A stretch of DNA of 30,578 nucleotides. Source: a virus. This document shows positions 15,876-30,525 of the stretch, one piece after another (within the stretch, counting starts at the first letter, position 1; each line of letters starts with the position of its first letter). Where the stretch lies: positions 1 through 30,578 of IMG/VR virus record IMGVR_UViG_3300005613_002608; one strand, given 5' to 3'. The notes beneath the pieces are model-generated. The model saw only the letters and a program-made list of their open reading frames with translations, searched no databases and had not been told where the DNA came from. A program made the position numbers and the translations under genes.

Positions 15876-16226
15876 TTATCCCCCTAATAGTTTCTTGCGC
15901 GCTACTACCGCTTCATCCTTGATCCCTAACGGATTAGTCTTTACGCTTGTACTCCGGGCCGCTGCCCGCCTTTGATCTTCTGCCTGCTTCTGTGCCTTTT
16001 TGTTTGCATCTTCCATCTTTGGAGCTTCCGGGGCCTTAATATCACTCTTAGGCATCTCAGGAGTTGAAGGCTGTTGCATCATACCGGATACCCCATAGGC
16101 TGCCCCTGCACCCGCTGCCAATGCTGTAGCCCCGCCTATTGTCGTAGCCAATGATGTACCAAATAATCCTGTACCGGCTACTGTTGATGCTCCTAATGTT
16201 GCTGCTAATGATGAGAATATCGCCAT
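15876..16226 (-). CDS. LLG-tail protein with hydrophobic N-terminus (116 aa)
   Basis: Residues 1-50 are an Ala/Gly/Thr-rich hydrophobic stretch (LAAGAGAAYGVSGMM) that could enter a membrane; residues 52-85 are Pro/Lys-rich; the end reads TSVKTNPLGIKDEAVVARKK then LLGG. Many podoviruses encode, next to the terminase gene, a small protein with the pattern 'ST.LTSPLG....AxVARKTLLG', which this matches from memory. The role is not established; a small tail or ejection protein such as T7 gp7.3 is a reasonable guess. It begins at the TAATG overlap with the terminase stop. Confidence 0.6.
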   Translation of the reverse strand: MAIFSSLAATLGASTVAGTGLFGTSLATTIGGATALAAGAGAAYGVSGMMQQPSTPEMPKSDIKAPEAPKMEDANKKAQKQAEDQRRAAARSTSVKTNPLGIKDEAVVARKKLLGG

Positions 16227-17572
16227 TATATTACCCCCGCTGTATTGAATAAGTTATCTTCTTTGTAGTACGCCGGCTGTCTTGTCTGGTATATTGTTTC
16301 CTGATCGTACCGGATATTGCCTATCTGATCTACTGCCATGATCAAAGCATCTGCCATGTTCGGACTCTTTATATTAAACTTAGAGCGCATCACATCCTTA
16401 CTGATCAGGATCTTGCGCTGGTAATGATCGTACTTATACTTCAGGGTACATAGCTCCCGGATCGTATCTTCATCGGTGATCACCATATGGCCATTCGTTA
16501 CCATCTCTTTGAGCTTGTAAACGGCTCTTGTCCGGCAGTTACCGTACTGCTTATCTTTATCATAGCCCAGCGATAAGTTCTTGAACCCTACAAAGTTATC
16601 CAGGCCGCGCCCATGTCTAAGCGTATCTAAGTTCCCGGCTCCCATACCATCTTCATCTATCACATTGCGATCAGCATGCTGCTGTACAGATGTAGTCAGT
16701 ATCCGCCCTGATGTATAATTGAGATCGGTATGATCCCAGGTATCTACATAGATCATTTCCCAATGGAGCGCGCCACGCTGCTGTAATACTACTGCTGCGC
16801 ATTGATCATCTCCATAACGCGCTATATCAAACCCTGCTATCCGGTATCCGTAAGCATCTTTGAGATCATGCCGCTTAGTTACAGTATCCTTCAGCTCCCG
16901 GTATGTGAATACAGCATCTTCAAGCTGGAGTAACGGCTCACCCAGCCAGATATGCCTGTAATCCTTATCGCTCTTAGCCTTACATACTTCAGCTTCATCT
17001 TTCAGCGCCTGGGTACAGAATGGGTTATCGTAATAGTTGAGATGTACATGGCAGCAATCTTCCCTGCCGTACAGAAATTCATACACCGGATCATGTTCTT
17101 CATGCCGGTTCATAGTGAAGAATAGTTTAGCATCATCGCGCCTGATCGTAGGTATCAATCTCTGGAGCGTAGTAGTAGTCAAAGCCTGGGCTTCATCCAC
17201 CCAAACAATACTGCAATTTTCCATACCCTGAATATTGAATGAGCCAACTTCCCGGAAACCCCTGAAGTTGATTACTGTGCCTGATTCTTTATGTCTGATC
17301 TTTGTAGATAAGATGTCGTAAGGGAGATTGTACTCTCTGATGATGTCGCACATTAAACTGTAAACTGATTCAGCGATACTGTTCTGGGTTTCTCTACCGC
17401 ATACGATCCTGAGCTTTCTCTGATCTCCCAGATATAGAATGATCCTGGCAAGCGCTTGACTCTTACCGCCGCCCCTGCCACCTTCTGCCATGAAATACCG
17501 ATACTTATTGATGTCCGTAATGAACGGCCGCATCTTATCAGCCATCTGCAACACCTTCGGCATTTCTATCAT
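16226..17572 (-). CDS. terL: Terminase large subunit (448 aa)
   Basis: DNA-packaging motor ATPase and nuclease that binds the portal. Walker A is GGRGGGKS (31-38), Walker B IVWVDEAQ (122-129), followed by a coupling segment (FFTMNRHEEHDP, 151-162). The RNase H-like nuclease domain has its first acidic residue in GFDIARYGDD (D249), a second acidic group in IDEDGMGAG (D306, D308) and a third in SPNMADALIM (D408). The arrangement fits the PBSX/Terminase_3 type rather than the T7 gp19 type, although the virion genes are T7-like. Start ATG 17570-17572 overlaps the preceding stop as ATGA; SD AAGGATGGG. Confidence 0.95.
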   Translation of the reverse strand: MIEMPKVLQMADKMRPFITDINKYRYFMAEGGRGGGKSQALARIILYLGDQRKLRIVCGRETQNSIAESVYSLMCDIIREYNLPYDILSTKIRHKESGTVINFRGFREVGSFNIQGMENCSIVWVDEAQALTTTTLQRLIPTIRRDDAKLFFTMNRHEEHDPVYEFLYGREDCCHVHLNYYDNPFCTQALKDEAEVCKAKSDKDYRHIWLGEPLLQLEDAVFTYRELKDTVTKRHDLKDAYGYRIAGFDIARYGDDQCAAVVLQQRGALHWEMIYVDTWDHTDLNYTSGRILTTSVQQHADRNVIDEDGMGAGNLDTLRHGRGLDNFVGFKNLSLGYDKDKQYGNCRTRAVYKLKEMVTNGHMVITDEDTIRELCTLKYKYDHYQRKILISKDVMRSKFNIKSPNMADALIMAVDQIGNIRYDQETIYQTRQPAYYKEDNLFNTAGVI

Positions 17573-18010: not shown

Positions 18011-18021
18011 AAGCTCCATAT

Positions 18022-18062
18022 AAAAAAAAAGAACGCCAGTTCCTTTTACAGAACCGGCGCTC
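18022..18062 (-). terminator. Strong intrinsic terminator/attenuator before the late operon
   Basis: On the minus strand a 12-bp stem (arms 18051-18062 and 18031-18042, two G-U wobbles, 8-base loop) is followed by nine T residues (18030 to 18022). It would end transcription from the accessory operon and also from the promoter at 18110-18138, which lies upstream of it. The first late gene starts only about 12 bases beyond it, with no promoter in between, so it looks like an attenuator of the late operon. Confidence 0.85.
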
Positions 18063-18066
18063 TCCG

Positions 18067-18082
18067 ATCCAAGAGATTAAGA
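18067..18082. repeat. 16-base inverted-repeat partner of 30158-30173
   Basis: ATCCAAGAGATTAAGA on the plus strand here is identical to the minus strand at 30158-30173. Both genes sets are read from the minus strand, so the two leader RNAs would carry perfectly complementary 16-base segments. Flanking bases do not extend the exact match, but the neighbourhoods share weaker similarity (GCTTA, ATATAC and CACTATAT in the same order). Confidence 0.8.
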
Positions 18083-18109
18083 GTGGGAGTTACCCAGCTT
18101 AATACCTAA

Positions 18110-18138
18110 AATATACACTATATAGTATTAATTGTCAA
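18110..18138 (-). promoter_or_regulatory. Consensus sigma70-type promoter (late leader)
   Basis: Minus-strand -35 box TTGACA at 18133-18138, 17-base spacer, -10 box TATATT at 18110-18115. Expected start near 18103, giving a leader of about 80 bases that ends at the terminator 18022-18062. The -35 box overlaps the stop codon of the last accessory gene. It belongs to the host polymerase type. Confidence 0.8.
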
Positions 18139-18290
18139 GTCCACCACAATATTTTACGCCACCAGGGTTTCTTAACTGGCTTTTTGATACTCTCAACCCC
18201 AGGAATATAGGCTGTTTTACGCTTTTTGCTTTTTGGTTTCTTTACAGCAGGATGTCTGCCGAAAGCGCCCTTCGTTGCCTTTCTATTCAT
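18135..18290 (-). CDS. Small very basic protein (51 aa), last accessory gene
   Basis: Unrecognised protein beginning MNRKATKGAFGRHPAVKKPK with about one third Lys/Arg and a Trp-rich end (KKPWWRKILWWT). The ATG (18288-18290) overlaps the stop of the membrane protein as ATGA, so this start is chosen over an upstream in-frame ATG with no SD. Its stop codon lies within the -35 box of the late promoter. The charge suggests nucleic-acid or membrane-surface binding; nothing firmer can be said. Confidence 0.55.
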   Translation of the reverse strand: MNRKATKGAFGRHPAVKKPKSKKRKTAYIPGVESIKKPVKKPWWRKILWWT

Positions 18291-18808
18291 ATTATACTCA
18301 CCGCCCCTAAGATTATACCGTATAACCAGCAAGCCCACCACCAGGTATCTTTAGGACACCATACTTTAACATCTCCGATTCGGGTACAACCATTCCATCC
18401 CCACTTCAAGCCATTGCTTAGCCATGAGATCAAACAGAAGCCCAAACCGGATCCTATCAGGGCTACTCCAGCCATGATCCATTTACATTGAAATAGTTGT
18501 ATAGCCATTGGATATAAACCGCAGATCAAACCATTACAGAATAAGATCAGCCATCCCAGGATCTTATTTCTTTCCTGCTGAGTATTCGGATCCGGCCAGA
18601 TTAGCTTGATCCCCATATCATAGAATAACGCTTGATAGATATAGAACATACTGGCCAGGATTAGCAATCCCCACCAGGGTACACCGATCACAAGCCCAAT
18701 CAATACAGATACTATAGAAATTAGAACACCCCTTCTCCATCTACCGAAATACTTTTCTCCGCCGATCGCCCAGGCAAAGCCCATTAGTACCATTAGTATA
18801 TACTTCAT
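18287..18808 (-). CDS. Multispan membrane protein (173 aa)
   Basis: An N-terminal hydrophobic segment (MKYILMVLMGFAWAIGG) is followed by FGRWRRG and about four more hydrophobic helices, near residues 28-62, 83-108, 112-132 and 152-173, with several Trp and Gly. No catalytic motif is evident. It follows the GT-C-like enzyme and the Cys-rich protein in one translationally coupled string (ATGA at both ends; SD AAGGAG). It could be a carrier or flippase for a lipid-linked sugar, by analogy to GtrA, or a holin-like protein; neither is shown by the sequence. Confidence 0.6.
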   Translation of the reverse strand: MKYILMVLMGFAWAIGGEKYFGRWRRGVLISIVSVLIGLVIGVPWWGLLILASMFYIYQALFYDMGIKLIWPDPNTQQERNKILGWLILFCNGLICGLYPMAIQLFQCKWIMAGVALIGSGLGFCLISWLSNGLKWGWNGCTRIGDVKVWCPKDTWWWACWLYGIILGAVSII

Positions 18809-19008
18809 TTTGGCTCCTTCAGGTTACTAAACTTAAAACAAGTATCGCACTTCTTATCTTTATTCAGGCAGTTCTTGATACAGATCCCTACCCGGAAATT
18901 CCCCCTACTCTTAGGGCCACCGGAAGGCTTCAGATCATATTCTTCCCGCATACCTTCAATAAAATCTTTACCGCCAAACTTGATCTTTTCTTTCTTTATC
19001 TCAGTAAT
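18805..19008 (-). CDS. Small Cys-rich protein, possible AUU start (67 aa)
   Basis: An open frame of 67 codons fills the gap between the GT-C-like gene and the membrane protein, ending in an ATGA overlap with the latter. It has no ATG, GTG or TTG near its beginning; the SD AAGGGAG lies 6 bases before an ATT (19006-19008) in the right frame, giving the start ...TEIKKEKIKFGG. The first in-frame ATG is about 18 codons later and has no SD. The C-terminal half has C-x3-C-x6-C-x2-C (CIKNCLNKDKKCDTC), a probable metal-binding knuckle. It overlaps the previous gene by 13 bases. Reality of the gene is supported by the perfect coupling downstream; the start is uncertain. Confidence 0.55.
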   Translation of the reverse strand: MTEIKKEKIKFGGKDFIEGMREEYDLKPSGGPKSRGNFRVGICIKNCLNKDKKCDTCFKFSNLKEPK

Positions 19009-20321
19009 TGGTATCTCCCTTGCTTATATTCTTTCAAAAGATGTTCGGACAATTTCTCCTGGCCCTTGATCACATTCTCATTCGCTTCTTTCATGTACTT
19101 AACTGATTCATCATTCTGTTTCAGATGTCTAAGGACTACAGCGATATTATACAAGATCTTGTACTCTTTAGGGCTGAGCATCTTAGCCATTACCCAGCAG
19201 TTAAGCGCTTCCCGGATAGCCTGCTGCTGCCATCTCTTATGCGCCCGGACAAACCAGCAATACCAGGCTGCTGAATCTTCATTAACAGATCGCTCTATAA
19301 GCCAGTAATCATCGGTATATGCGGGTAAGTATGTCTGAAGCCGGCCTACATAATATCCAAAGAACATAGCCAGGATCGGCAGCGGGAATATATTAGCTAA
19401 GGCATACATGATCCCTATGTTAGCTGTATATACATATCTCTCAGCGATCTCTTGCTGCATCCTGAATAAATTTAGATACGGCGCGATACTACATGAGTAC
19501 CAGAAGATCCCCCAGGATACCGGAGTCCAGTTCCATATAGCTGAATAGATCAAGTATCCTATCAGAGCCAAACCTACATAGAAAAATACATCTTTCTTCC
19601 TGGCGCGTTTAGCCATAATTTCATTACCAGCCCCCGCCCCGGATTGCATAAAACTATGATACCAGGTAACAGCCCAGGGTACAATCGCTATACAGAAATA
19701 CCAGCCGTAGATCTTTATCGCTACAATGATCTTCGCCCAGGATAGCTTCCTATCAAAATCTACTACTTCATTACCCCGGCGGGTTTTTACTTCTTGCTTC
19801 AAATGCTTCCAATGCAGCGCCCATACAATCGGAAGGAATAGTACCAGATACCATTGCCCTGATCCTACGAATCCTATCGGGGCAAATAGAGCCGTAGGAT
19901 GTACTGTTGCGGCTATCATAGCAGGAAGCCCAAAGTATCCGCTTGTCTTTGCCATCATTAGAAACAGCGCACACCACGCGTAATGTCTGCCGCTTATCCA
20001 TACTGCCCCCTGATTGTTTATTGGATTTACAACAAATAAGAGAGATGCTGCAAAGCTGATATTATTAGCCCCAAGACCGAGATATATAAATACACAACAA
20101 ATGCCATGCACAGCAATGCTAATGCCATGATCAAGTTTAGGATTACCAGAAGTACTTGATTGCCAGATCCTTTCATCTTTACCTACCTTTTTTTCGTTCC
20201 GCCGGCCTTCCGAAAGCAGATCATCAGATACATATCCATATTTTAATGTCCTGGCATAGAACAGGATCGTAGTAAATATGATTATCGCTATATTCCAAAA
20301 CTGCTCTTGATACCCTTCCAT
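18996..20321 (-). CDS. GT-C/TMTC-like membrane glycosyltransferase with TPR-like tail (441 aa)
   Basis: Predicted polytopic membrane glycosyltransferase that would transfer a sugar from a polyprenyl-phosphate donor on the outer face of the membrane. The first helix (9-24) is followed by YGYVSDDL (28-35), whose DD is the usual catalytic position of GT-C enzymes in the first outer loop. LLFVVNPINNQGAVWISGRH (94-113) closely follows the TMTC/PMT-like pattern 'LLFavHP..tE.vaWisGR'. QEIAERYVYT (290-299) matches the conserved 'q.iaeRYlYlp' segment. About eight to ten hydrophobic segments lie between 9 and 325. Residues about 350-415 are soluble and TPR-like (ALNCWVMAKML, ILYNIAVVLRHLKQND). The gene overlaps the previous one by 34 bases and has a weak SD. 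Confidence 0.7.
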   Translation of the reverse strand: MEGYQEQFWNIAIIIFTTILFYARTLKYGYVSDDLLSEGRRNEKKVGKDERIWQSSTSGNPKLDHGISIAVHGICCVFIYLGLGANNISFAASLLFVVNPINNQGAVWISGRHYAWCALFLMMAKTSGYFGLPAMIAATVHPTALFAPIGFVGSGQWYLVLFLPIVWALHWKHLKQEVKTRRGNEVVDFDRKLSWAKIIVAIKIYGWYFCIAIVPWAVTWYHSFMQSGAGAGNEIMAKRARKKDVFFYVGLALIGYLIYSAIWNWTPVSWGIFWYSCSIAPYLNLFRMQQEIAERYVYTANIGIMYALANIFPLPILAMFFGYYVGRLQTYLPAYTDDYWLIERSVNEDSAAWYCWFVRAHKRWQQQAIREALNCWVMAKMLSPKEYKILYNIAVVLRHLKQNDESVKYMKEANENVIKGQEKLSEHLLKEYKQGRYQLLR

Positions 20322-21256
20322 ATATAGATCACATCTTCCTTTGTCTTTATGTCGCGTAATTTATTTATCCAGAAATCCGGGTAATATGCTGCATGATATA
20401 TCCTGGGTACAAAATCTTTCGCCCTACTACATGGAAGCTCATCCGGTACTGTATATACTGATGCCTGAGCTGTCTTACATATCCCCTTGCGCAGCAAATG
20501 ATGTACTAACTCCAGAGTCCGGATACTATCATCTTCACGCTCCCAGGGATACCCAAACATTACAGCTACATGCGGCTCCAGGCCTGCTGCTTCTGCTTCT
20601 ATCAGCTCATCTACCGCCTTATGAATATCCGTACCCTTATTGATCCTATCCAAAGTATCCTGGCTGGCACTCTCCAGGCCATATAATAACATACGACATC
20701 CGGCTTCTTTCATCTTCTCGTAGTCCGGATCCGTACCAAAGCGCATATTACAGCTAAACTTAATATCTATCTGCTGGAGCTGCCATAAAAAACTATCACG
20801 CCATTGGCCTGTAGGTAAACTTGCAGCATCATCAAAGATCTCCCTATACCCCAGGCGCTTGCAATGTCGGATCTCTGCGATCACATCATGTACAGTACGC
20901 TCAGTATATTTACCGCCGCACTCCTTGCAGAATGTACACTTACCCCACCAGCATCCACCGGCTGATTGGATATAAGTACCGGGATTATATTTATAGTTAC
21001 CGTTAGCCTGATACTTAGGATCATCTGCCTTAGTTAAGATCCTATCCGGAGCCGGCAAGCTCTCAAACGGTATCCCTTCAATCTCCGTTACTACTTTATC
21101 AAAAGCATCTTCGTAGCAGGCTTCATCCCAGGTGATCTCATGGCCCAGCATCTTATTCCAGGTAGCTTCCATCGCCAGATGTACCGGCCAGATCCATCGT
21201 TTCTTCTCACGCTGGCGCTGCTGGCTATATGGATGCGGCTTATATAAGATCTTCAT
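20288..21256 (-). CDS. Radical SAM enzyme, B12-type-like catalytic domain (322 aa)
   Basis: Predicted iron-sulfur radical SAM enzyme. The cluster motif GGCWWGKCTFCKEC (C102, C107, C110) has spacing CX4CX2C rather than the usual CX3CX2C, as also seen in some BchE-like and RiPP-maturase relatives. It is followed by EIFDDAASLPTG (139-150), RMLLYGLESASQDTLDRINK (188-207) and FGYPWE (234-239), which are typical of the HpnJ/BchE-type B12-dependent subgroup. The N-terminus (about 95 residues) is too short for a full cobalamin-binding domain. Start ATG 21254-21256 overlaps the methyltransferase stop (ATGA) and has SD AAGGGG; an upstream in-frame start lacks one. Substrate unknown. Confidence 0.8.
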   Translation of the reverse strand: MKILYKPHPYSQQRQREKKRWIWPVHLAMEATWNKMLGHEITWDEACYEDAFDKVVTEIEGIPFESLPAPDRILTKADDPKYQANGNYKYNPGTYIQSAGGCWWGKCTFCKECGGKYTERTVHDVIAEIRHCKRLGYREIFDDAASLPTGQWRDSFLWQLQQIDIKFSCNMRFGTDPDYEKMKEAGCRMLLYGLESASQDTLDRINKGTDIHKAVDELIEAEAAGLEPHVAVMFGYPWEREDDSIRTLELVHHLLRKGICKTAQASVYTVPDELPCSRAKDFVPRIYHAAYYPDFWINKLRDIKTKEDVIYIWKGIKSSFGI

Positions 21257-21807
21257 AGCTTGATCCCCTTCCAGATCACTTCCCGGCATTGGATCGGGCT
21301 GATATTCTCCCATAAGCGCGGGTTAATACTTATCAACATATTCACAAACTTATCCACAATCTTAATAATCGGGATCGCCCACTTAGGCAGATTCCCTTCT
21401 GCATCCGGATCTTCATACCACCATCTGAGCTGCTGCTCTACTGTCTTGAACATAGGATCTCTGAACATATACCAGGGCTTAGCAAGGTAATCGTCAAAGG
21501 TGCTGTATGAATATGTCCGGTAATGCCCCAGGCATCCTACGCTGGTAATATGTGAAGCATGCGGAGCTGAGATCCTAAGAAATCCACCCGGCTTCAGGAT
21601 CCTGTAACATTCAGCTATAAACTTCTCCTGATCCGGGAAATGTTCCATAATATGCGATGCATAGATGCCATCTATCGTTTCAGATCTCCAAAACCAGGGA
21701 TGCTTTGCCAGATCCGTAACAATATCTATGCCTGGATACCTTGTAATATCTACATTTACAGCATCAGGCCTTAACTTTTTGCCTGCGCCCAGATTTAATA
21801 TGGTCAT
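21253..21807 (-). CDS. SAM-dependent methyltransferase, class I (184 aa)
   Basis: Methyltransferase-11-like protein. Motif I is LNLGAGKKLRP (4-14); a second acidic position follows in VNVDITRYPGIDIV; IYASHIMEHF (48-57) and ILKPGGFLRISAPH (69-82) are motifs typical of the family. Short class I enzymes of this kind are common in glycan clusters, methylating sugars or regulating chain length. The start (21805-21807, SD AGGAG) lies 44 bases inside the preceding epimerase gene, and the end overlaps the next gene as ATGA. Acceptor unknown. Confidence 0.85.
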   Translation of the reverse strand: MTILNLGAGKKLRPDAVNVDITRYPGIDIVTDLAKHPWFWRSETIDGIYASHIMEHFPDQEKFIAECYRILKPGGFLRISAPHASHITSVGCLGHYRTYSYSTFDDYLAKPWYMFRDPMFKTVEQQLRWWYEDPDAEGNLPKWAIPIIKIVDKFVNMLISINPRLWENISPIQCREVIWKGIKL

Positions 21808-22267
21808 ATATCTCCTTGCATAGATCTTTAATATTGCCCTTGTTGATCTTGCCAGGCCTTATATACTTAGCATTTAATTGATATTTATCTATATGTTTTT
21901 CTGCCATGCGCTTATATCTTCCGTAGGTAGTATCCAATCTTTCCGCTGCATCACTTGATACAAAGAGCGCCGGTATCCCCTGATCATCCAAATAGTTCAA
22001 CAGCTCAATAGTTCTATGTACATTCAACCAATATGATTCCAGCTTCTCATCTTCACAAAATTGGATCTTAGCATAAGCTGATAATATAACTACATAATCA
22101 AAAGACTTCCAGATCTTAGGAGAATTTTCCCGGAGATCAAAATGGAAGTAGCCATCTTCAAAGCATTTATTATTACACCAGGATCCCATAACTTTCTCGC
22201 CCTTTTTATCCAGATACTTAAATAACGCCCGGCCGATATACCCTGAAGCTCCACATATACCTATCAT
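21764..22267 (-). CDS. Short NAD-dependent epimerase/dehydratase, RmlD-like (167 aa)
   Basis: Rossmann-fold sugar-nucleotide enzyme. GASGYIG (6-12) is the dinucleotide loop, VSSD (104-107) and YGRYK (115-119) are the catalytic Ser and YxxxK of extended SDR enzymes, and YIRPGK (about 135-140) follows as usual. At 167 residues it lacks most of the C-terminal substrate domain of normal family members (about 280-320 aa), yet the frame is intact, so this may be a natural minimal form. The ATG at 22265-22267 (SD GGGGAG) is preferred over the TTG two codons upstream and overlaps the previous stop as TGATG. Confidence 0.75.
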   Translation of the reverse strand: MIGICGASGYIGRALFKYLDKKGEKVMGSWCNNKCFEDGYFHFDLRENSPKIWKSFDYVVILSAYAKIQFCEDEKLESYWLNVHRTIELLNYLDDQGIPALFVSSDAAERLDTTYGRYKRMAEKHIDKYQLNAKYIRPGKINKGNIKDLCKEIYDHIKSGRRQKVKA

Positions 22268-23307
22268 CAGCAAAACTCCCCATGTTCTATCATAAGATAT
22301 TCTAAGATCATTCTATTCGTACAATCAGTTATACAATGATGGTTACAATCCCTGGAAGGATCTATCTTATAGAATTTACTATCGCCATCATACCAAAACT
22401 TCCGGAAGCTCTGATCCTTGATGGATCCCAGGAGTCCGGTATCTTTATTATAAGCCTTATCATGACAAGCGTACACATTCTGATCTGCGCCTATGATCGG
22501 CAGGATCTGTATATATGGACACCAGTTATAATGCTTCTCGAACCCGGAAAGCTGCGCATGATATGAATCATATACCTTGATCCCTTCATCGTATAACTTA
22601 TCCATCTGTTCCTGGACTAAGGGCCTAAGCGCAAAGTGTATATCATTATTAGTCTGCGAATCGTTACTTACTATACATGGAGAGATCTTAATAGACTTAA
22701 CTCCCAGATCATGTACCATCTTCACCAGGTCGTATATATGAGTCGCGTTATCGCCATCTACTATAATGTTTACTCCCAGGACACAATTCCCCGGATTAGC
22801 CGCAGCAAACTCTATGTTCTTCATAAGCTGATCAAAATCTTCCGGCTTACACTTCCGATACTTAGAATAACTATCCCGATCCCATCCATCCATACTGATC
22901 CGTACCCAGCTGCATGTATCCATAGCTATCCGGAGCAGCGCATCTTTTAATAGTACACCATTAGTCAGGATCGCTGTAGAGATCCCCAGAGAGCTACATT
23001 TTTCCAGTATGTCCATCAAGCCCTTATATAGCAATGGTTCCCCACCACCAGAGAATGTAAGAGCCTTAACTCCCATAGCTCCGCAATCATCTATGATCTC
23101 ATGCATCTTCTCCAGCGGAATCTCATCCTGGACTTGCATATCCTTACCCAGCTGGCCATAACTATTCTGGTATGAACAGTATGAGCAGTTATGATTACAC
23201 CGGTTAGTCGGCTTTATCCGTATATGGATCGGTTCGGTGATCTCGCCATCGGCAAAACTATCTAATTTACGCGGATGATGTAGCGCCTTCAGTTTAGAAT
23301 AATACAT
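22267..23307 (-). CDS. Radical SAM/SPASM-type enzyme (346 aa)
   Basis: Cluster motif RCNHNCSYC (C37, C41, C44) and SAM-binding SGGGEPLL (86-93), followed by TNGVLL and WVRISMDG, are standard for the MoaA/PqqE-like branch. The last 85 residues hold many cysteines (WCPY, YACHDKAYN, RDCNHHCITDC), consistent with a SPASM-like auxiliary cluster domain. Such enzymes modify peptides or sugars (for example aminoglycoside or anaerobic sulfatase maturation). Next to sugar enzymes, radical oxidation or epimerisation of a sugar is one possibility. SD AGGAGAG; 9 bases after the previous gene. Confidence 0.85.
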   Translation of the reverse strand: MYYSKLKALHHPRKLDSFADGEITEPIHIRIKPTNRCNHNCSYCSYQNSYGQLGKDMQVQDEIPLEKMHEIIDDCGAMGVKALTFSGGGEPLLYKGLMDILEKCSSLGISTAILTNGVLLKDALLRIAMDTCSWVRISMDGWDRDSYSKYRKCKPEDFDQLMKNIEFAAANPGNCVLGVNIIVDGDNATHIYDLVKMVHDLGVKSIKISPCIVSNDSQTNNDIHFALRPLVQEQMDKLYDEGIKVYDSYHAQLSGFEKHYNWCPYIQILPIIGADQNVYACHDKAYNKDTGLLGSIKDQSFRKFWYDGDSKFYKIDPSRDCNHHCITDCTNRMILEYLMIEHGEFC

Positions 23308-23316
23308 CGCTCTCCT

Positions 23317-23937
23317 TTATTTGAAAAACAAAAATTCCCAATCGCCTTTATAGCCCCATTCTTCAAACAGAAATTCCCATTCCTTCGGCTGGAAAAACTG
23401 TTCACATGTCAATGTCCAGCATTGTAGATTGAATAACTCCCGGATATTCCGGTACGAATCTACGGTTATATAACTATTCTTCGCTCCATTCTGGAAATAT
23501 CGTAGCATAACCTTCAATTCCGGCAGCTTCAAGTTATGCAGCGTACCCAGGGAAAGTATCAAGTCAAAGCTATCATGCGGATCCGGCCGCTTAATAGGGA
23601 TGACCGCATTGTCCAGCGCATACTTGGATACATCATATCCATAGACTTCACACCCGCATAGATCCTTTAGCTCCTTTAATAGAAAGCCCTTAGCACATCC
23701 GAAATCCATCACCCGGCTTTTATCTGTCAGATCATACCGATCTATCAGATCCTTAGCTACAGATTTATACCGGCCATCGTAATGATACCCACCGTATCCA
23801 TACCTACGATCACCATCAAAGAAGGCTTCATCAAACTGCCGGGCTATCTTCATACACTTAACTTTATCATCTACCATGCGCGGCAAATACGCCCTATTAG
23901 TTTTAGAATGTAGCTTATTTATTATGTTTACTCTCAT
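23317..23937 (-). CDS. SAM-dependent methyltransferase, class I (206 aa)
   Basis: Motif I is RVMDFGCAKGFLLKEL (75-90), with acidic motif II in VYGYDVSKYAL (about 96-106) and FDLILSLGTLHNLKLPEL as the later conserved strand. The N-terminal 60 residues are Arg/Tyr/Gly-rich (FFDGDRRYGYGGYHYDGR). This layout is common among methyltransferases of O-antigen and phage glycan clusters. The ATG 23935-23937 has SD AAGGA; an in-frame TTG 36 bases upstream lacks one. The 60 bases before it hold a possible GGGGCT/GGCCCC hairpin. Substrate unknown. Confidence 0.82.
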   Translation of the reverse strand: MRVNIINKLHSKTNRAYLPRMVDDKVKCMKIARQFDEAFFDGDRRYGYGGYHYDGRYKSVAKDLIDRYDLTDKSRVMDFGCAKGFLLKELKDLCGCEVYGYDVSKYALDNAVIPIKRPDPHDSFDLILSLGTLHNLKLPELKVMLRYFQNGAKNSYITVDSYRNIRELFNLQCWTLTCEQFFQPKEWEFLFEEWGYKGDWEFLFFK

Positions 23938-23998
23938 AGTTTCCTTCTGGGGCCAGGCAGGATCCTTCCACAAACCCCTTTCATTTTAGGCCCAGCCC

Positions 23999-24967
23999 CT
24001 ATAATTTTTCTATCGCCTGATCATAAGAATAGAACCAGTTATAGAACCGGCGGCGGATCCAATATGGCAGCTTCATTATCCCCCAAAGCGCGATCTGAGC
24101 CTTCCATCTGGCTTTTACGCTCCATATACCGCTTTCTAAGGCCCTTTGATACGCGAAATTGCCTGTAGTTTCGCCTTTATTCGTTAAGATCCCCTTATAA
24201 AACTCCTTATGGACATCGCATGCCTGCTTAACTTTCTGATTATTACTGACTGCGCCAAAGCTATTAGGATAAGATCTGTATGTAGCCAGATGTTCACCCA
24301 GGTTCACAAAGCCCTTAGCAAAAACTTGAGTAAAAGAATATAGGCAATCAAAGCAGGCTTCAGTATATTTACCAGCGCCTTCCCAGCATGTAAGTACCCA
24401 TTCGCGCTTAATCACTATACCACATTGATTTATATTCTTAGCAAAGCCGGCCTTAAAGATCTTGACCGCGTAATCCGGAGAGATATAAGAAGTGAATGGA
24501 AAGAGAGTACGCTCATAGACTTCACCTTCCCGGATCACCTGAGCATTACATGTAAATACTTCTACCAGGCTATACTTCTGGATCGCATCTCGCATACGCC
24601 ACATATAGTCTGTGCGCGGGTAATCATCAGCGCTAAAGCAGGCCACATATTCGCTCTTAGCCTTCTGGCATCCAGCTACAAAGGCCCCGAATGGACTCTG
24701 CTGGCCCTGATTTATGATGATCTCAAAGTCGTACTGCTTCTTCAGATCCGTTAAAAGCGCCAGGCTCTCATCAGTAGATCTATCATCTACTACGATAAAC
24801 TCATCCGGCTTCTGCTTAGCGATCCTTCTAACCGCATCTATCAGGAACCGGCTATCATTATAGTTACAGAGTACCGCTGCTATTTTCTTAGGTATATTAT
24901 CGCCCTTATGAATATCAGCATGTACAGCTTGATCGACATTATCGGATGTTTTATTAGCTGTTTCCAT
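23999..24967 (-). CDS. Family-2 glycosyltransferase (322 aa)
   Basis: GT-A fold inverting transferase. The fold starts at KKIAAVLCNYND (27-38) with FIVVDDRSTDES (57-68) binding the nucleotide and FSADDYPRTD (111-120) supplying the metal-binding DD. The C-terminal half has aromatic helices (MKLPYWIRRRFYNWFYSYD), perhaps membrane-associated. The first 26 residues lie outside the fold and overlap the preceding glycosyltransferase gene by 88 bases, so a later non-ATG start cannot be excluded, although METANKTSDN has a good SD (GGAG). Donor and acceptor unknown. Confidence 0.85.
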   Translation of the reverse strand: METANKTSDNVDQAVHADIHKGDNIPKKIAAVLCNYNDSRFLIDAVRRIAKQKPDEFIVVDDRSTDESLALLTDLKKQYDFEIIINQGQQSPFGAFVAGCQKAKSEYVACFSADDYPRTDYMWRMRDAIQKYSLVEVFTCNAQVIREGEVYERTLFPFTSYISPDYAVKIFKAGFAKNINQCGIVIKREWVLTCWEGAGKYTEACFDCLYSFTQVFAKGFVNLGEHLATYRSYPNSFGAVSNNQKVKQACDVHKEFYKGILTNKGETTGNFAYQRALESGIWSVKARWKAQIALWGIMKLPYWIRRRFYNWFYSYDQAIEKL

Positions 24968-25578
24968 TTTCCATTCTCCATAAATACGCCAAACACTCTG
25001 TACCAAAACTTCAGTACCTTAGCATCCGGGTTATTTTCGTGAAATTTAGCCATACTGCGCGTATAGTATGCTTTCTTTTTGATATAGTCCAGGAACCGGA
25101 TCTGATCATCATGGTAGAGTACATTCTTAGTCTGGAGCTTAACCGGCGGGATCCTGAGATCCCATTCGGCATCTTCTGGCCCCGATAATTCTTCATTAAA
25201 GAATCCACAATATTTCTTCCGGACAAACCTTACACAATCTATAGGCGTAGCCGTATAGAATTGCCTTTCAAAATTCCGGAGCTTCGTGAACCAATCATCT
25301 CCCCGGATGATCTCCGGGATATACAAGCTGCTTACCCCTGGCTGGCGCTCCATTATGGAGATGCACTCATAAACCAAAGGTTTAGTAATACGCTGATCAG
25401 AGTCAAGAACCAGAATATAATCCGCATCCGATGAAGCAATACCAATATTACGCTGCGCAGATCGTTCAAGCCCAAGATCCACTTCCAATAGTTCTACTTC
25501 TGGTATAGAATTGCATACTTCTTCAATCTCCTTTATGTCGCGCCCATGATTAGGCACTACTACAGATACCTTTATCAT
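24880..25578 (-). CDS. Family-2 glycosyltransferase (232 aa)
   Basis: GT-A fold transferase: VSVVVPNHGRD (4-14), ERSAQRNIGIASSDADYILV (39-58) and the metal-binding LDSD (58-61). A later acidic patch (LSGPEDAEWDLRI, about 132-144) corresponds to the catalytic base region ('GEDxDL'). The C-terminus ends in a hydrophobic helix (LYMLIFIRAIIYL), suggesting membrane contact. It starts at the ATGA overlap with the preceding GT; a GTG three codons earlier is less likely. Donor and acceptor unknown. Confidence 0.85.
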   Translation of the reverse strand: MIKVSVVVPNHGRDIKEIEEVCNSIPEVELLEVDLGLERSAQRNIGIASSDADYILVLDSDQRITKPLVYECISIMERQPGVSSLYIPEIIRGDDWFTKLRNFERQFYTATPIDCVRFVRKKYCGFFNEELSGPEDAEWDLRIPPVKLQTKNVLYHDDQIRFLDYIKKKAYYTRSMAKFHENNPDAKVLKFWYRVFGVFMENGKWKQLIKHPIMSIKLYMLIFIRAIIYLRK

Positions 25579-26153
25579 ATCCCCCACCTTAGTTTTATGG
25601 TATCCCTGAAAGCAGAAAACACATCCTTCCAGGATTTACCAGATGAAACAACAGCATGAATAGGTATCTCCAGCATCTTCTTGCCAGCTTTCTTAGCTTC
25701 CCATAGGATCTCTATATCAAACGCCCAGCCTTCCAGGAACCAGGTAGGCGCATAACTAAACGCCTTGATCCCTGTCTGAGTATCTACGCCCAGGCCAAAC
25801 AACAATTTTACCCATATCCTTGATAAATAAGTTAGCACTCTCCTGTCAAGTCTGCCAGGTAATTCTTTTTTCCCTACTACTACATCATATCCCTGGCCTA
25901 AAAAGAACAGAAACGGCTGGATCTGAGCCGGGTTAATATCTCCATCCCCATCTATAAATATATAATAATCTGGCTTATATACCTGAGCAGCCTTCAGAGC
26001 CTGTCTAAGAGCATATCCCTTCCCCCTACTACCGTAGTCGTTATAGGAGCAGATATGAGCATCAGGCCCTACTGCATCGTAAATTTGAGCCATTACACGC
26101 TGAAGCATCAAGGGATTCTCATTATGAGTCGGTACACATACGGCTATTTTCAT
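25575..26153 (-). CDS. Family-2 glycosyltransferase, DPM1/polyprenyl-P-sugar synthase-like (192 aa)
   Basis: The start MKIAVCVPTHNE is followed by YGSRGKGYALRQALK (40-54), resembling the 'nrGkG.A...G' element of dolichyl-phosphate mannose synthase-like enzymes, then FIDGDGD (66-72) with the metal-binding aspartates, and DTQTGIKAFS, which parallels the 'D..sGfra' segment. Members load a sugar onto polyprenyl phosphate for a GT-C enzyme, and such an enzyme is encoded later in the same operon. It lacks the two C-terminal membrane helices of GtrB. The ATG 26151-26153 has SD GGGAGAG and overlaps the HNH stop (ATGA). Confidence 0.8.
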   Translation of the reverse strand: MKIAVCVPTHNENPLMLQRVMAQIYDAVGPDAHICSYNDYGSRGKGYALRQALKAAQVYKPDYYIFIDGDGDINPAQIQPFLFFLGQGYDVVVGKKELPGRLDRRVLTYLSRIWVKLLFGLGVDTQTGIKAFSYAPTWFLEGWAFDIEILWEAKKAGKKMLEIPIHAVVSSGKSWKDVFSAFRDTIKLRWGI

Positions 26154-26578
26154 ACTCTCTCCCAGCGATAACCACCTGTTGTTTTCATTCCATGTCTTTT
26201 GACCTTGTTTACTACCGCACACAACCTTCCCCGGTTTAAACCCAACTCATTACAAGCAGCAGCCATATTGGGCCAAACCTTAATTAGCTTGCCTTCTCTC
26301 GTTAATTGTTTTATGGGCTTTATATTCAAATGTTCCGATTTTTCTTCATAAAAGCAGTTGCTTAATTCATAGTGCTTGTTGTGGTCTTTCCGGCTAATGG
26401 TCGGGCATTCCATCTGCGCCGCCCCATCTCTATCCCATAAATATTTTAGCTCTTTTAGAGAAATTAGATTTTTTATTCCCCGGCTATAATGCGAATGGCC
26501 CCTTTGGCTACACCGCACCTGAATATAGCCCCAGGTTTTAGCCCAGGGGTGTGTCTTGTAATATTTAGCCTTACACAC
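26150..26578 (-). CDS. HNH / NUMOD1 homing-type endonuclease (about 142 aa)
   Basis: Predicted site-specific DNA endonuclease and mobile gene. The N-terminal part (HPWAKTWGYIQVRC, then YSRGIKNL) and CPTISRKDHNKHYELSNC (58-75) follow the phage HNH pattern 'W....RC...YgGRGI....', 'PsiDRiDndgnYt.eNC'; the usual Asp before Arg is Ser here, so activity is uncertain. A C-terminal NUMOD1 DNA-binding element is clear: IKQLTREGKLIKVWPNMAAA (89-108), then RGRLCAVVNK and TGGYRWERV. The start is probably GTG 26576-26578 (SD GGGG), two bases from the transketolase stop. It contains no GATC over 26161-26580 although flanking genes are GATC-rich, pointing to recent arrival. Confidence 0.75.
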   Translation of the reverse strand: MCKAKYYKTHPWAKTWGYIQVRCSQRGHSHYSRGIKNLISLKELKYLWDRDGAAQMECPTISRKDHNKHYELSNCFYEEKSEHLNIKPIKQLTREGKLIKVWPNMAAACNELGLNRGRLCAVVNKVKRHGMKTTGGYRWERV

Positions 26579-27035
26579 GAATATACCCCGCTTCTTTTGA
26601 ATTGATCCAACTAATAAAATCTGCCCCTTCATATACCGGCATATCTATTACATCCAGGGCTGCCTTATCATCATCCCAGGTACAATGGCACTCGCCCAGG
26701 CCCTTGAAGAAATCCCCGGCTCCGTTACCTATGATCTTAACATTCCGCTTCATCTGTACCAGATCTATCCGGATCTGCTCATACGCCCGGAACACTATGA
26801 AGGATGCTATACTGTAGATGATAGGCTTCATACCCGCTGCGGCCATGCCTGATGCAATCCCTACTGTACTCTGCTCAGCGATCCCGCAGTTAAGTACGCG
26901 ATCCGGGAACATCGCCCGGAGCTTGTCCACCTTCGCGAATCCGCAATCGCATATCAGTAGATAATATTTCTTATCTGCTGCGAAATATGGGATCAGTTCT
27001 TCTATTATTGTATCTCTGGACACCTGAAATGCCAT
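26571..27035 (-). CDS. Transketolase C-subunit, pyrimidine domain only (154 aa)
   Basis: Second half of a two-subunit thiamine-diphosphate enzyme. LNCGIAEQSTVGIASGMAAA (48-67) contains the catalytic Glu (E54) that activates the cofactor, and IGNGAGDFFKGLGECHCTWD (102-121) matches the conserved loop contributing to the active site. It ends at AGYIRV, exactly where the pyrimidine domain ends; the third (transketolase C-terminal) domain, normally another 120-130 residues, is absent and is not found downstream of the HNH gene that begins at this point. The start overlaps the N-subunit by 31 bases with SD AAGG. Confidence 0.82.
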   Translation of the reverse strand: MAFQVSRDTIIEELIPYFAADKKYYLLICDCGFAKVDKLRAMFPDRVLNCGIAEQSTVGIASGMAAAGMKPIIYSIASFIVFRAYEQIRIDLVQMKRNVKIIGNGAGDFFKGLGECHCTWDDDKAALDVIDMPVYEGADFISWINSKEAGYIRV

Positions 27036-27688
27036 TCTGCCTTATTCTCCATTATTGGTACACCTTTACCCTTAACGGACTTCGCTAAGAGTACCAGCGG
27101 CATAGTTTCCAACCACCGGATCAGATCGTGATGATCATGCGCATCACATTCATACGGCTTAAACCCCCATCCATAGAAGCGGCCCTTCAAACTCTGATAT
27201 AATATATGATCTATCTTATCCATCGCCTGTAATCCATTGCAATCTACGATCACCGATATATTAGTAAGACTATGATGAAACATAAACGCCAGGGCTTCCC
27301 AGCAAGATCCTTCCTGAAGCTCACCATCACCTACGATCACCCAGGTATGCTTATCATTTTCTAACTGTTTATTCGCATAAGCCCTGCCTACTGCTACCGG
27401 AAGGCCATGCCCCAGGGATCCGTACCCTTCCAGGCAGCCATCCAGCTCAAAGTTCTCCCACTTCTCGCGCGGCAATAACCCAAGATCCGCCCAGATCGCA
27501 TAGAGTCCATAGCAGCCATGCCCTTTACTGAGTATAACGGTATCCCGGTCTTGTATGATCTTATAATATAATACGGTAAGTATATCCAGGCAGGAAAGGC
27601 TGGGAGCTATATGCCCCTGCTTATTCTTTGTCGCTACTTCTAAGATCTCTTTCCGGAGATCATCAGCCTTTTGTATAGTATTTATCAT
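27005..27688 (-). CDS. Transketolase N-subunit, ThDP-binding (227 aa)
   Basis: Thiamine-diphosphate-binding half of a split transketolase. KQGHIAPSLSCLDILTVLYY (23-42), LSKGHG (53-58) and the ThDP/Mg motif GDGELQEGSCWEA (120-132) ending at DCNGLQ (149-154) are all present. Split transketolases with sugar genes can transfer two-carbon units to make branched or long-chain sugars; cyanophages also carry transketolase-like genes. Slightly short (usual 260-290 aa). ATG 27686-27688 has SD GGAAG and lies 26 bases inside the previous gene. Substrate unknown. Confidence 0.88.
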   Translation of the reverse strand: MINTIQKADDLRKEILEVATKNKQGHIAPSLSCLDILTVLYYKIIQDRDTVILSKGHGCYGLYAIWADLGLLPREKWENFELDGCLEGYGSLGHGLPVAVGRAYANKQLENDKHTWVIVGDGELQEGSCWEALAFMFHHSLTNISVIVDCNGLQAMDKIDHILYQSLKGRFYGWGFKPYECDAHDHHDLIRWLETMPLVLLAKSVKGKGVPIMENKAEWHFRCPEIQ

Positions 27689-28082
27689 AGATTTCTTCCG
27701 ATAGATGCCGGATCTTCTCCTGTACCTGGCTATCACCTACAGCTTTTGATAGTTCGTTCATGTACCGGACTCTTGTCTTGTTATGTTCCCGGACTTGCTC
27801 CGCTGCTTTCCCTACTACGGATAGCGGCATCTCACCGAATGAAGCGTTCCGGATCTCATGTTCTTTATTCCATATATCTGCATTGGCCTGGGTAATCCTG
27901 ATGATCGCCAGGAGTATATAGGCATCTATCCCTATATCGTTCAGCCAGCCCATGATCAGATCCAGCTCTTTACGCGCCCCTTCCAGGCCGTAGATCTCTT
28001 TCCGGGATACGATTGATAGCTTATCTATAAGTTCTGCGAATGAATATTGAAACGCGCCGCGTTGCACTTTTTTCTTCTTCAC
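27663..28082 (-). CDS. Small helical protein of unknown function (139 aa)
   Basis: A soluble, charged, all-helical protein with FSFAELIDKLSIVSRKEIYG (about 13-33) and ITQANADIWNKEHEIRNA (about 62-80). The pattern 'ELiDKLsI...K', then 'l...N..lW..E.eiR' is one I associate with small proteins seen in phage and LPS clusters (DUF4254-like), but the match is loose. No catalytic motif. Start overlaps the previous gene by 4 bases (ATGA). It may assist one of the neighbouring enzymes. Confidence 0.55.
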   Translation of the reverse strand: MKKKKVQRGAFQYSFAELIDKLSIVSRKEIYGLEGARKELDLIMGWLNDIGIDAYILLAIIRITQANADIWNKEHEIRNASFGEMPLSVVGKAAEQVREHNKTRVRYMNELSKAVGDSQVQEKIRHLSEEIYDKYYTKG

Positions 28083-28909
28083 TTTATCTCCTTAATAGTT
28101 ACGGAGCAATGACCTGTGCGCTGAAAACGATCATACTTTATTTTCAGATCACATGGATTGCAAAGTCCAAAATTATCGCAAGGCAGGAAGCTGGTAGGGA
28201 GTTCAACATCTCTGTCAAGGATATGACCGTAGGAATGGACTCCATGATACAGATCGTGATGACATCTGAATAGTCTGCCATCTGGAGCTATCAGGAGTTC
28301 TGAAGGTTTACACTTACACTTCCTGCGCTTGCCGTTTACTGCTTCCGGATACCGGTAGTTACCATGCTCAGCATCCAGAAATTCTTTAGTCCTGAAATCC
28401 AGCCCCATATCTTCAGCAGCCTGGCGGATGATCTGGATCACTTCATCCCCGGTATCTACCGCCCAGATCCCTACAAAATAACCGCGATCCTGTAAGGTCT
28501 TTACATCCCATATTAACTTCTGTATATCCGTATAGCCGGGATGATAGCTGAAGCGTATAGAAGCATACTTCGCCCGGCGCTTAATTCGCTCCGGCGGGAT
28601 CACGCTCATAAATTCTTCCACATGAAAATCACCATTGGTTAATAGATCTATAGGTATTTTCTCATCCACCCCAGGGATCAACTTGTAGAAGTTTTTATGC
28701 AGCGTAGGTTCACCGCCGGTAATAGTTATAGGGAGATCGCCCCTTGTCTGGATCCGGTTCAGGCCCTTGATCCAATCCTTTGCAGGCATTGTCTTGTATT
28801 TATGAAGGCCGTTATATTTGTTAATACAGTAATGACATTGGAAGGTACACGCGAAAGTAAGGAAGGCGCTTATATAATTATATTCTTTAGGTATAATAAT
28901 CTTTTTCAT
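28079..28909 (-). CDS. Radical SAM enzyme (276 aa)
   Basis: Iron-sulfur motif ACTFQCHYC (C21, C25, C28), SAM-binding TITGGEPTL (62-70) and LLTNGD (89-94). The C-terminal part holds C198, C200, C216, C244, C250, C253 and C268, with CDNFGLCNPC resembling an auxiliary-cluster site. The phrase IAPDGRLFRCHHDLY also occurs in SPASM-like enzymes. It overlaps the upstream radical SAM gene by 4 bases (ATGA), so the two are co-translated and may act in sequence on one substrate. Substrate unknown. Confidence 0.85.
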   Translation of the reverse strand: MKKIIIPKEYNYISAFLTFACTFQCHYCINKYNGLHKYKTMPAKDWIKGLNRIQTRGDLPITITGGEPTLHKNFYKLIPGVDEKIPIDLLTNGDFHVEEFMSVIPPERIKRRAKYASIRFSYHPGYTDIQKLIWDVKTLQDRGYFVGIWAVDTGDEVIQIIRQAAEDMGLDFRTKEFLDAEHGNYRYPEAVNGKRRKCKCKPSELLIAPDGRLFRCHHDLYHGVHSYGHILDRDVELPTSFLPCDNFGLCNPCDLKIKYDRFQRTGHCSVTIKEIK

Positions 28910-30072
28910 ATAAAACTTAAATGTTCTGGCGGATTCGCTAAAAGCCTTTCATACTGCGCCTTTGAACCACATAGCTTAGCTAAAGTTTCTTTAGCATCAC
29001 CTTTATATTCTTTCATAAACTTATACATAAATTTGTTACTGCATGAATGGCGGCATTGTCCATCACATAGTTCCGGTAGCGGAGTCTTTGCTACCTTATC
29101 TATTACTTTCCAGTACCGTTCCGATTCCAGGATAGTTTCCAGCCGATCTTCCTGGAGATCTCCATAACAGTATTCATCTTTATTGAACATGTACCCGCAG
29201 GGATAACATTTACCGTTCCCGGATACCTGGAATAGAAACGGTAGATCTACACACCAATCAAATTCCCATTTCCTTTCCATAGTGATCTTCTTAGATTCTT
29301 CTATAGCATGCCACTTTATGATCACCTTCGTGGTATCATTACTAAGAGCTTCCGCCTTCCGTAAGTTTTCTTCTATCTGATCATATAAGTTCATATCAAA
29401 ATGCATCGGCATACCTGTGCCGGCATCAGAAAACTGCTTCACCTGGACATAATCTACACCCAATTCTACGCCCAATTTAGCTAAGGGTACTACTTGATCA
29501 AAACATTCCGGGATCAGTACCATCTGAAGCCCTATAGTACAGTTACCTTTATGCTTTACTGCATGATCTATGATCCCCCGGATCTTCTCAAAGGATCCTT
29601 CCGGTACGCCCCGATGGATCTTGTCGTACTTCTCGCCTACTGCTGAGATATTAAACCGTAGCCAGGTACAGTTCTCTGTAAGGATCTCCGTTTTATGATC
29701 ATCCAGAAGCAGCCCATTAGTAGCTACCGCGCTCTCTACGCCATTAGCTGTTAGGGCCTTTACAAACTGATATAGCCCATGATTCAATGTAGGTTCACCA
29801 TCACCTATGATCGCGATCCCTTTGATCCCCAGCTTCCCGGCATCTGTAGCGATCCCCAGGAGCTTGTCTGTAGGTATGTAGTCGTTAGAAGGTTTCTGGT
29901 AGGTTCCATAACAGAAGATACAGCGCATGTTGCAGCCTTTGTGTATCCCCATGTCAATCGTTGTCGGATAGATCCGTTTCCCATCCATGAAAGCCTGGAG
30001 CTGCTCTTGATACCAGGCCATTTTACATCCATCAAAAATATACTGCTTCGGCTCACCTTTCAAATAATCCAT
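28906..30072 (-). CDS. Radical SAM/SPASM enzyme, first accessory gene (388 aa)
   Basis: Cluster motif GCNMRCIFC (C47, C51, C54), IIGDGEPTLN (88-97; GDGEP replaces the usual GGEP), VATNGLLL (116-123) and a C-terminal SPASM-like set (C274, C289, C292, C302, C336, C340, C344). Such enzymes carry out oxidations or C-C/C-S chemistry on peptides or sugars. ATG 30070-30072 has SD AAAAGGG 5 bases upstream; an in-frame ATG at 30112-30114 has none and is rejected. It is the first gene after the long leader 30073-30497. Confidence 0.85.
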   Translation of the reverse strand: MDYLKGEPKQYIFDGCKMAWYQEQLQAFMDGKRIYPTTIDMGIHKGCNMRCIFCYGTYQKPSNDYIPTDKLLGIATDAGKLGIKGIAIIGDGEPTLNHGLYQFVKALTANGVESAVATNGLLLDDHKTEILTENCTWLRFNISAVGEKYDKIHRGVPEGSFEKIRGIIDHAVKHKGNCTIGLQMVLIPECFDQVVPLAKLGVELGVDYVQVKQFSDAGTGMPMHFDMNLYDQIEENLRKAEALSNDTTKVIIKWHAIEESKKITMERKWEFDWCVDLPFLFQVSGNGKCYPCGYMFNKDEYCYGDLQEDRLETILESERYWKVIDKVAKTPLPELCDGQCRHSCSNKFMYKFMKEYKGDAKETLAKLCGSKAQYERLLANPPEHLSFI

Positions 30073-30111
30073 TTTTTCCCTTTTCTTTTTCTCATTTAGA
30101 TAAAGCTCCCC

Positions 30112-30135
30112 CATATAGTGGGTATTAGTATATAT
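30112..30135 (-). promoter_or_regulatory. Sequence resembling a T7-type promoter (weak)
   Basis: Minus strand reads TAATACC CACTATAT GGGGGAG. T7's own promoter is TAATACGACT CACTATA GGGAG, so the flanks match but the spacing differs. I found no second copy of CACTATA followed by G on the minus strand, and no phage RNA polymerase gene is in the window. Chance similarity is quite possible. Confidence 0.2.
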
Positions 30136-30497: not shown

Positions 30498-30525
30498 ATT
30501 ATAATGATTTTTCCTGAGATGTCAA
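30498..30525 (-). promoter_or_regulatory. Consensus sigma70-type promoter (accessory leader)
   Basis: Minus-strand -35 box TTGACA (30520-30525), 16-base spacer, -10 box TATAAT (30498-30503). Both boxes are perfect. Start expected near 30491, about 50 bases before the bidirectional terminator and about 420 bases before the first accessory gene. The host polymerase would use it without phage factors. Confidence 0.85.

Follow-up and report, generated by a model that had tools for sequence, protein, structure and literature searches.

The cassette upstream of the terminase genes

The DNA considered here, which we call the window, is the whole of positions 1 to 30,578 of the IMG/VR virus record IMGVR_UViG_3300005613_002608, a viral contig of 30,578 bases in which all of the main genes lie on the minus strand. 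Positions 198-17572 encode a set of virion proteins with T7-like family matches (internal virion proteins, tail tube A and B, capsid, portal and terminase), and upstream of the terminase-portal-capsid module, as recognized by Pfam and PHROGs, there is a cassette of 18 minus-strand open reading frames (ORFs; 18135-30114), most of which overlap their neighbours by a few bases. Family or structure matches identify among the cassette products four radical S-adenosylmethionine (SAM) enzymes (rSAM1 to rSAM4), the two halves of a split transketolase (TKN and TKpyr), three glycosyltransferases of family 2 (GT2a to GT2c), two methyltransferases (MT1 and MT2) and a GT-C-like membrane protein (Table 1). 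An earlier, sequence-only reading of the window had described essentially this operon next to T7-like virion genes, and its roster requires few amendments: one of the 18 genes encodes an HNH-like endonuclease, and the predicted epimerase does match the Epimerase family, but is only half-length. Homologues of similar length to the latter protein, a short-chain dehydrogenase/reductase (SDR), occur in the related viral records G003 and G005 and not in G001.

The same cassette occupies the same place in this last record (G001, IMGVR_UViG_3300028920_000722), an independent phage contig with portal and terminase proteins 75% and 67% identical to those of the window. Thirteen of the cassette genes can be paired between the two contigs at 35-73% amino-acid identity (68% for rSAM1, 69% for MT1 and 57% for GT2b, for which the value is 50% in G004 and 46% in G010). 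The paired cassette genes exhibit ratios of nonsynonymous to synonymous substitution (dN/dS) at or below ~0.16, comparable to the values for the portal, major capsid and large terminase (TerL) genes, in a comparison for which synonymous sites are saturated or nearly so; the 139-residue protein of the cassette has a ratio of ~0.3. The cassette genes are under strong purifying selection. Beyond the set found in the window, G001 has two more radical SAM enzymes, one of them of the B12 type, as well as a short-chain dehydrogenase and a second transketolase pair, this one full-length.

The sequence-only reading had proposed a phage-borne sugar cassette and had pointed to the junction at 18.0-18.3 kb as the place where an assembly error might be revealed. 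The GT-C gene is found beside terminase genes in many independent contigs and the cassette recurs in the same place. An assembly chimera is ruled out by the independent contigs with the same arrangement together with the closed genomes described below.

Table 1. Genes and putative control elements of the cassette and its flanks in the window
Feature	Coordinates	Strand	Basis
Sigma-70 promoter, consensus TTGACA-16-TATAAT, upstream of rSAM1	30498..30525	-	sequence
Terminator-like stem after the rSAM1 promoter	30443-30412	-	sequence
rSAM1, radical SAM/SPASM enzyme, 402 aa, first cassette gene	28906..30114	-	Pfam Radical_SAM 5.5e-19, SPASM 6.1e-7
rSAM2, radical SAM enzyme with SPASM/Twitch-like C-terminal cysteines, 276 aa	28079..28909	-	Pfam Radical_SAM 9.3e-10
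139-aa protein, companion of the transketolase module	27663..28082	-	no Pfam match
TKN, thiamine-diphosphate-binding half of split transketolase, 227 aa	27005..27688	-	Transketolase_N 1.9e-13
TKpyr, pyrimidine-domain-only partner of TKN, 154 aa	26571..27035	-	Transket_pyr 7.1e-11
HNH/NUMOD-like free-standing endonuclease	26150..26632	-	weak Pfam match, I-HmuI NUMOD-like, E 0.076
GT2a, short DPM-like GT2, proposed polyprenyl-phosphate sugar synthase	25575..26153	-	Pfam Glycos_transf_2
GT2b, glycosyltransferase	24880..25587	-	Pfam GT2 1.7e-6
GT2c, glycosyltransferase	23999..25006	-	Pfam GT2 9.2e-17
MT1, SAM-dependent methyltransferase	23317..23973	-	Methyltransf_23 1e-10
rSAM3, radical SAM enzyme	22267..23307	-	Pfam Radical_SAM 2.2e-21
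Half-length SDR, epimerase-like, 169 aa	21764..22273	-	Epimerase 3.9e-10, profile 3-117 of 240
MT2, SAM-dependent methyltransferase	21253..21807	-	Methyltransf_11 1.5e-9
rSAM4, radical SAM enzyme, usually the gene before GT-C	20288..21313	-	Pfam Radical_SAM 1.1e-10
GT-C-like membrane glycosyltransferase with C-terminal tetratricopeptide repeats (TPRs)	18996..20321	-	structure model, TPR profiles
Three small genes: 68 aa; 173-aa multispan membrane protein; 48 aa	18135..18951	-	ORFs
Terminator-like stem, 16 pairs plus T run, between cassette and packaging genes	18028..18065	-	sequence
TerL, terminase large subunit, anchor of the locus	16226..17572	-	Terminase_3 4.5e-23, phrog_2

Two of the starts as called are in doubt. 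Translation of rSAM1 likely begins at an ATG inside the called ORF, as the G001 homologue begins 12 residues in, and the true start of GT2c is probably internal as well, because its ORF overlaps GT2b. The three small genes nearest to the terminase have no relatives in the other related contigs.

The two ends of the locus

Related viral contigs were gathered by scans with portal, TKN, GT-C, rSAM3, rSAM2 and rSAM4; the scans of sequence collections used short peptide patterns, for which absences are weak. GT-C lies directly upstream of TerL in ~20 viral contigs (some of them near-duplicates), usually with rSAM4 just before it; in the divergent pair L034/L035, GT-C is present and rSAM4 went undetected. 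The divergence of both proteins follows that of TerL, with Spearman coefficients of 0.79 for GT-C and 0.72 for rSAM4 across pairs that are not independent of each other. We refer to rSAM4 and GT-C, joined in many contigs by GT2a and GT2b, as the transfer end of the locus.

The other, sugar-making end consists of the transketolase and radical SAM genes in the window and in two relatives, G001 and G005. G004 and the related G010 instead have genes for amine-oxidase-like, GT2 and GMD-like SDR proteins at this place, and in L088/L089 the locus carries what motif reading labels a DegT-like aminotransferase, a GT4-like protein, GT2s and an SDR, the last with a 29% match to the SDR of G004. Such ordinary surface-sugar genes in the same locus of relatives are an independent pointer to a glycan. 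The transketolase/radical SAM module is also present in G006, G007 and G008, where the terminase, portal and capsid proteins have no similarity to those of the window. Homologues of the 139-residue protein adjoin TKN in G001, G005, G006 and G008, and two homologues match DUF4254 weakly, below the cut-off. Because GT-C and rSAM4 track TerL, the genes upstream of them differ and the module occurs in unrelated phages, these comparisons show, at the level of gene content and sequence, that the transfer end stays with the phage and the sugar-making end moves.

More distant relatives of the phage module exist in cells. A nanoarchaeal metagenome-assembled genome has TKN, rSAM2 and a TKpyr-like gene side by side; on the nanoarchaeal contig L067 (1010-16866), several radical SAM proteins, a transketolase pair and a methyltransferase are clustered, and this cluster may be a cellular relative of the phage pathway. 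A strong relative of rSAM2 in at least 4 of 279 genomes of an archaeal phylum rules out that rSAM2 is a virus-only family. Short-pattern scans found no rSAM2 in plasmids and no GT-C in a collection of deposited phage records, and a scan of 296 genomes of one bacterial phylum, made without a positive control, found no GT-C.

Enzymes of the cassette and their proposed function

The best solved relative of TKN is the N-terminal chain of the split transketolase 6yak (3.9e-46), and the GDG...N motif is conserved. TKpyr aligns over ~125 residues with the first half of the C-terminal chain of 6yaj and stops before the third domain; its catalytic Glu (E54) is invariant in 11 homologues. Judged by these alignments, TKN and TKpyr have the thiamine-diphosphate domain and the pyrimidine domain with catalytic Glu by which a split transketolase is recognized. 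The sequence-only reading had described a split transketolase, but what it took for the C half is the pyrimidine domain alone: the chain ends after this domain, and no Transketolase_C domain was found on TKpyr in the window, G001, G005, G006, G007 or G008. The phage pair resembles the split-chain transketolase of Carboxydothermus (6yaj/6yak) in carrying the two domains on separate chains and differs from it in being shorter; by sequence, the phage transketolase is reduced to two domains. The second split pair of G001 (L003 7918-10044), which adjoins rSAM1, retains the third domain and has a methyltransferase gene between its halves.

A transketolase fold, and the existence of transketolase-like sequences in other phage records, might be taken to mean that the pair feeds the pentose phosphate pathway, as has been proposed for the transaldolase-type genes of cyanophages, and that the remaining genes are unrelated to it. 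We regard such an auxiliary role in carbon metabolism as very unlikely, given that several viral contigs unrelated to each other carry the reduced split transketolase next to radical SAM enzymes, and that it lies within one operon with glycosyltransferases.

The SPASM match of rSAM1, and the cysteine pattern and fold match of rSAM2, place both enzymes in the SPASM/Twitch branch of the radical SAM proteins. In rSAM2, CxxxCxxC and further Cys residues are invariant in 11 homologues, and the structures nearest to its AlphaFold model (pLDDT 90.5) are SuiB, DesII, SkfB and MoaA. The closest solved sequence to rSAM3 is BlsE, a nucleoside-sugar decarboxylase (9.1e-11), and distant relatives of rSAM3 adjoin a transketolase pair in L037 and L047. 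The solved relatives of rSAM4 are 9ccb and AprD4; it matches B12-type radical SAM families (HpnJ/PhpK) over the radical SAM core only, and no B12-binding Pfam match was found for an N-terminal domain. Relatives that act on sugars or nucleosides are thus found for rSAM3 (BlsE), rSAM4 (AprD4) and rSAM2 (DesII).

These matches could also be read as signs of a ribosomally synthesized and post-translationally modified peptide or another secreted small molecule, matured by the SPASM enzymes and decorated by the glycosyltransferases, since the radical SAM cores of rSAM1 to rSAM3 match many models of peptide maturases and the rSAM2 model is near SuiB and SkfB. The family scores, however, all fall far below the curated cut-offs, and the sole small ORF common to the three cassettes, and so available as a precursor, is the packaging-side gene at 17828-18019. 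A transketolase and a GT-C enzyme would be unexpected in a peptide pathway, and the relatives fill the same locus with sugar enzymes; a peptide product consequently seems improbable to us.

For the GT-C protein, the structure model has a pTM of 0.70. The best aligned solved structures for residues 1-366 are ALG12 (Z 14.8), PglB, AglB and ArnT, and among the listed matches across the whole membrane part almost all are GT-C enzymes; these came from a second aligner, Foldseek alone having returned only TPR and helical noise. The C-terminal TPRs are found by profile. An SDD motif near the N-terminus is invariant in 10 homologues, in which other motifs are conserved too. These motifs may resemble those of the TMTC-like O-mannosyltransferases, in which TPRs follow the TMTC domain; a Pfam search at E 0.1 gave no TMTC match for the same 10 homologues. 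GT2a matches AglJ (2.8e-5) and, weakly by profile, the Dol-P-Man synthase 5mlz (3.1e-4), and GT2c matches phrog_841, which is GtrB-like. No cassette protein, the 173-residue membrane protein included, matches the GtrA flippase family in Pfam or PHROGs. A DPM-like GT2 combined with a GT-C membrane enzyme is compatible with the earlier proposal that a sugar is loaded on polyprenyl phosphate and transferred outside.

Glycan assembly is, in our estimation, very probably the business of this locus, and extracytoplasmic transfer of the product is probable. The full proposal, in which an unusual sugar made by the locus is loaded on polyprenyl phosphate and the product is attached outside the inner membrane, with the host surface altered as a result, we consider likely, if a shade less so than its transfer step. 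The TKN and TKpyr chains would together make up a thiamine-diphosphate enzyme for two-carbon transfer, with a sugar or sugar phosphate as the donor or acceptor of the unit, and rSAM1, rSAM2, rSAM3, the methyltransferases and the short SDR would remodel the sugar by radical chemistry, methylation and redox reactions. GT2a would then place the sugar on polyprenyl phosphate, GT2b and GT2c might append further residues, and GT-C would join the product, outside the inner membrane, to a glycan, lipid or protein of the host surface. That the sugar is branched, as had been suggested earlier, is a guess. The resulting change of the host surface during infection would most likely block a second phage, or keep progeny off debris and already infected cells; such a role in superinfection or receptor change is plausible, though we would put it at somewhat below an even chance. 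More tentatively still, TKN/TKpyr, rSAM1, rSAM2 and the 139-residue protein might constitute a mobile pathway, common to unrelated phages, for an undescribed sugar that is displayed through rSAM4 and GT-C, in which case phages would keep the transferase and exchange the sugar.

The active site of GT-C enzymes faces away from the cytoplasm, and an acceptor on the host surface is for this reason likelier than one on the virion, which assembles in the cytoplasm; the suggestion in the sequence-only reading that the sugar might alter the virion is unlikely to hold by way of GT-C. Glycosylated capsids or tails do occur in some phages, the locus adjoins virion genes and the soluble GT2s could still act on virions, so that we assign to phage-particle glycosylation a small probability, below that of a peptide product. 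Smaller again, and on a par with a role in carbon metabolism, is the probability that the operon makes a glycosylated base for the protection of phage DNA. DNA glycosylation occurs in phages, the cassette has both methyltransferases and glycosyltransferases, and there are weak matches to QueE-like radical SAM families of phages; but a GT-C membrane enzyme and a DPM-like GT2 are unsuited to a DNA acceptor, and no thymidylate-synthase-like, kinase or DNA-glucosyltransferase family is among the Pfam and PHROGs matches of the cassette.

Several observations weigh against the assembly of a surface sugar as proposed here. The structural Z of ~14-15 for GT-C barely exceeds the chance level for helical models, and the protein has no curated family match outside its TPRs. 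GT2a has no membrane helices and its match to a solved structure is weak, and no conserved flippase was found in the cassette. The rSAM2 fold is about equally near to peptide-acting and sugar-acting enzymes, and radical SAM folds do not reveal the substrate. We infer the sugar, the acceptor and the benefit alike, and the benefit to the phage is a guess.

Putative control elements, phage group and biological meaning

Two minus-strand consensus promoters, one where the cassette begins (30412-30525) and one ahead of the packaging genes (18028-18138), each have a strong terminator-like stem within ~60 bases downstream. These pairs could serve antitermination control; a conserved promoter-terminator leader was considered and rejected, since the arrangement occurs twice in the window and is not conserved in relatives. 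The endonuclease gene between TKpyr and GT2a, which probably starts at a GTG overlapping the TKpyr stop, is 37% identical to a gene at another junction in G001, and it is absent from the TKpyr-GT2a junction in G001 and G005. Its start and stop codons overlap the neighbours on both sides, and coupling is therefore kept. Endonuclease-like genes (HNH-like, GIY-YIG and HNH) occupy different junctions of the locus in different phages (window 26150-26632; L003 10840-11223 and 16274-16567; L021 717-1154), and they may help the exchange of cassettes between phages.

The window belongs to an uncultured group of podoviruses, which are small tailed phages. G004 (~36.8 kb) and G005 (~40.5 kb) are probably closed genomes, because their ends are near-identical, though not identical (254 bases with 1 mismatch and 257 bases with 5 mismatches, respectively); the locus takes up ~7.8 kb (21%) of the former and 11.4 kb (28%) of the latter. 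No phage integrase was found in 13 related records (positive control 14/14), a search that leaves aside other integration systems and the missing part of the window phage; as neither of the two closed genomes yielded an integrase, there is no indication of classical lysogenic conversion. Family A DNA polymerase (DNA_pol_A) was absent from nine records in a search with a working positive control, and the gene lists of the closed genomes contain no candidate for either of the enzymes that mark the true T7-like phages (Autographiviridae), a single-subunit RNA polymerase and a DNA polymerase of the phage's own. A search for T7-type RNA polymerase returned nothing, but its control was also silent and it is not used as evidence. 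Early genes of the group include an O-like initiator, a VRR nuclease and a member of a phage exonuclease family.

Some variation among the relatives lies outside of the cassette. The gene after the capsid gene, single in the window (10622-11119), is present as two diverged tandem copies in G001 (L006 1-1020) and G002 (L050 7474-8517), and the GNAT acetyltransferase gene between terminase and portal (window 15010-15444) is duplicated in several relatives (L012, L013, L015 and L022). One end of G010 (L064-L066, record positions 35981-39799) carries the portal gene and part of the capsid gene in reversed orientation, probably as an assembly artefact.

By portal and capsid, the closest deposited phages are Pelagibacter phages of the HTVC010P type (Skadi, HTVC100P), which share the podovirus virion set at only 33-36% identity; HTVC100P lacks a cassette of this kind upstream of its TerL gene. 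Skadi reportedly relies on the RNA and DNA polymerases of its host (PMC10504331). Temperate phages such as P22 carry gtrABC cassettes for O-antigen conversion (PMC3688519), which load a sugar on polyprenyl phosphate by a GT2, rely on a polytopic transferase and change a surface glycan, as is proposed for the present locus. Those cassettes consist of three genes, in contrast to the ~15 of the present locus, which has no detected GtrA flippase, probably makes its own sugar, includes a radical SAM enzyme in its transfer end and occurs in closed genomes without a detected integrase. The pelagimyophages have cassettes of lipopolysaccharide and radical SAM genes in a host-recognition cluster (PMC7029224), which are variable between close relatives as the glycan genes are here; those phages are large myophages with cassettes beside the tail fibres and no transketolase mentioned, whereas the window derives from a podovirus, in which the locus adjoins the terminase and includes a conserved rSAM4-GT-C block. 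The small podovirus ctQWt234 (Manatee Spring, MW202801) has a radical SAM protein, glycosyltransferases, a methyltransferase and a NodB-like gene among its virion genes, but its cassette follows the capsid gene, an integrase and no transketolase are annotated, and the radical SAM protein is only 21% identical. In the open-access literature we found no description that matches transketolase plus radical SAM genes in phages, nor any of a conserved rSAM4/GT-C block beside the terminase, a swapped sugar end or a miniature transketolase with radical SAM enzymes.

If the proposed function is correct, small phages without a detected integrase or family A DNA polymerase would devote between a fifth and more than a quarter of their genomes to a surface sugar; phages would inherit one part of the locus with the rest of the genome and trade another among themselves. 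The group would thereby offer a system for asking why a phage without recognized lysogeny genes remodels the surface of its host. The compact transketolases would represent a family with possibly new sugar chemistry, and the rSAM4-GT-C-TerL block would be a marker by which similar loci could be found.

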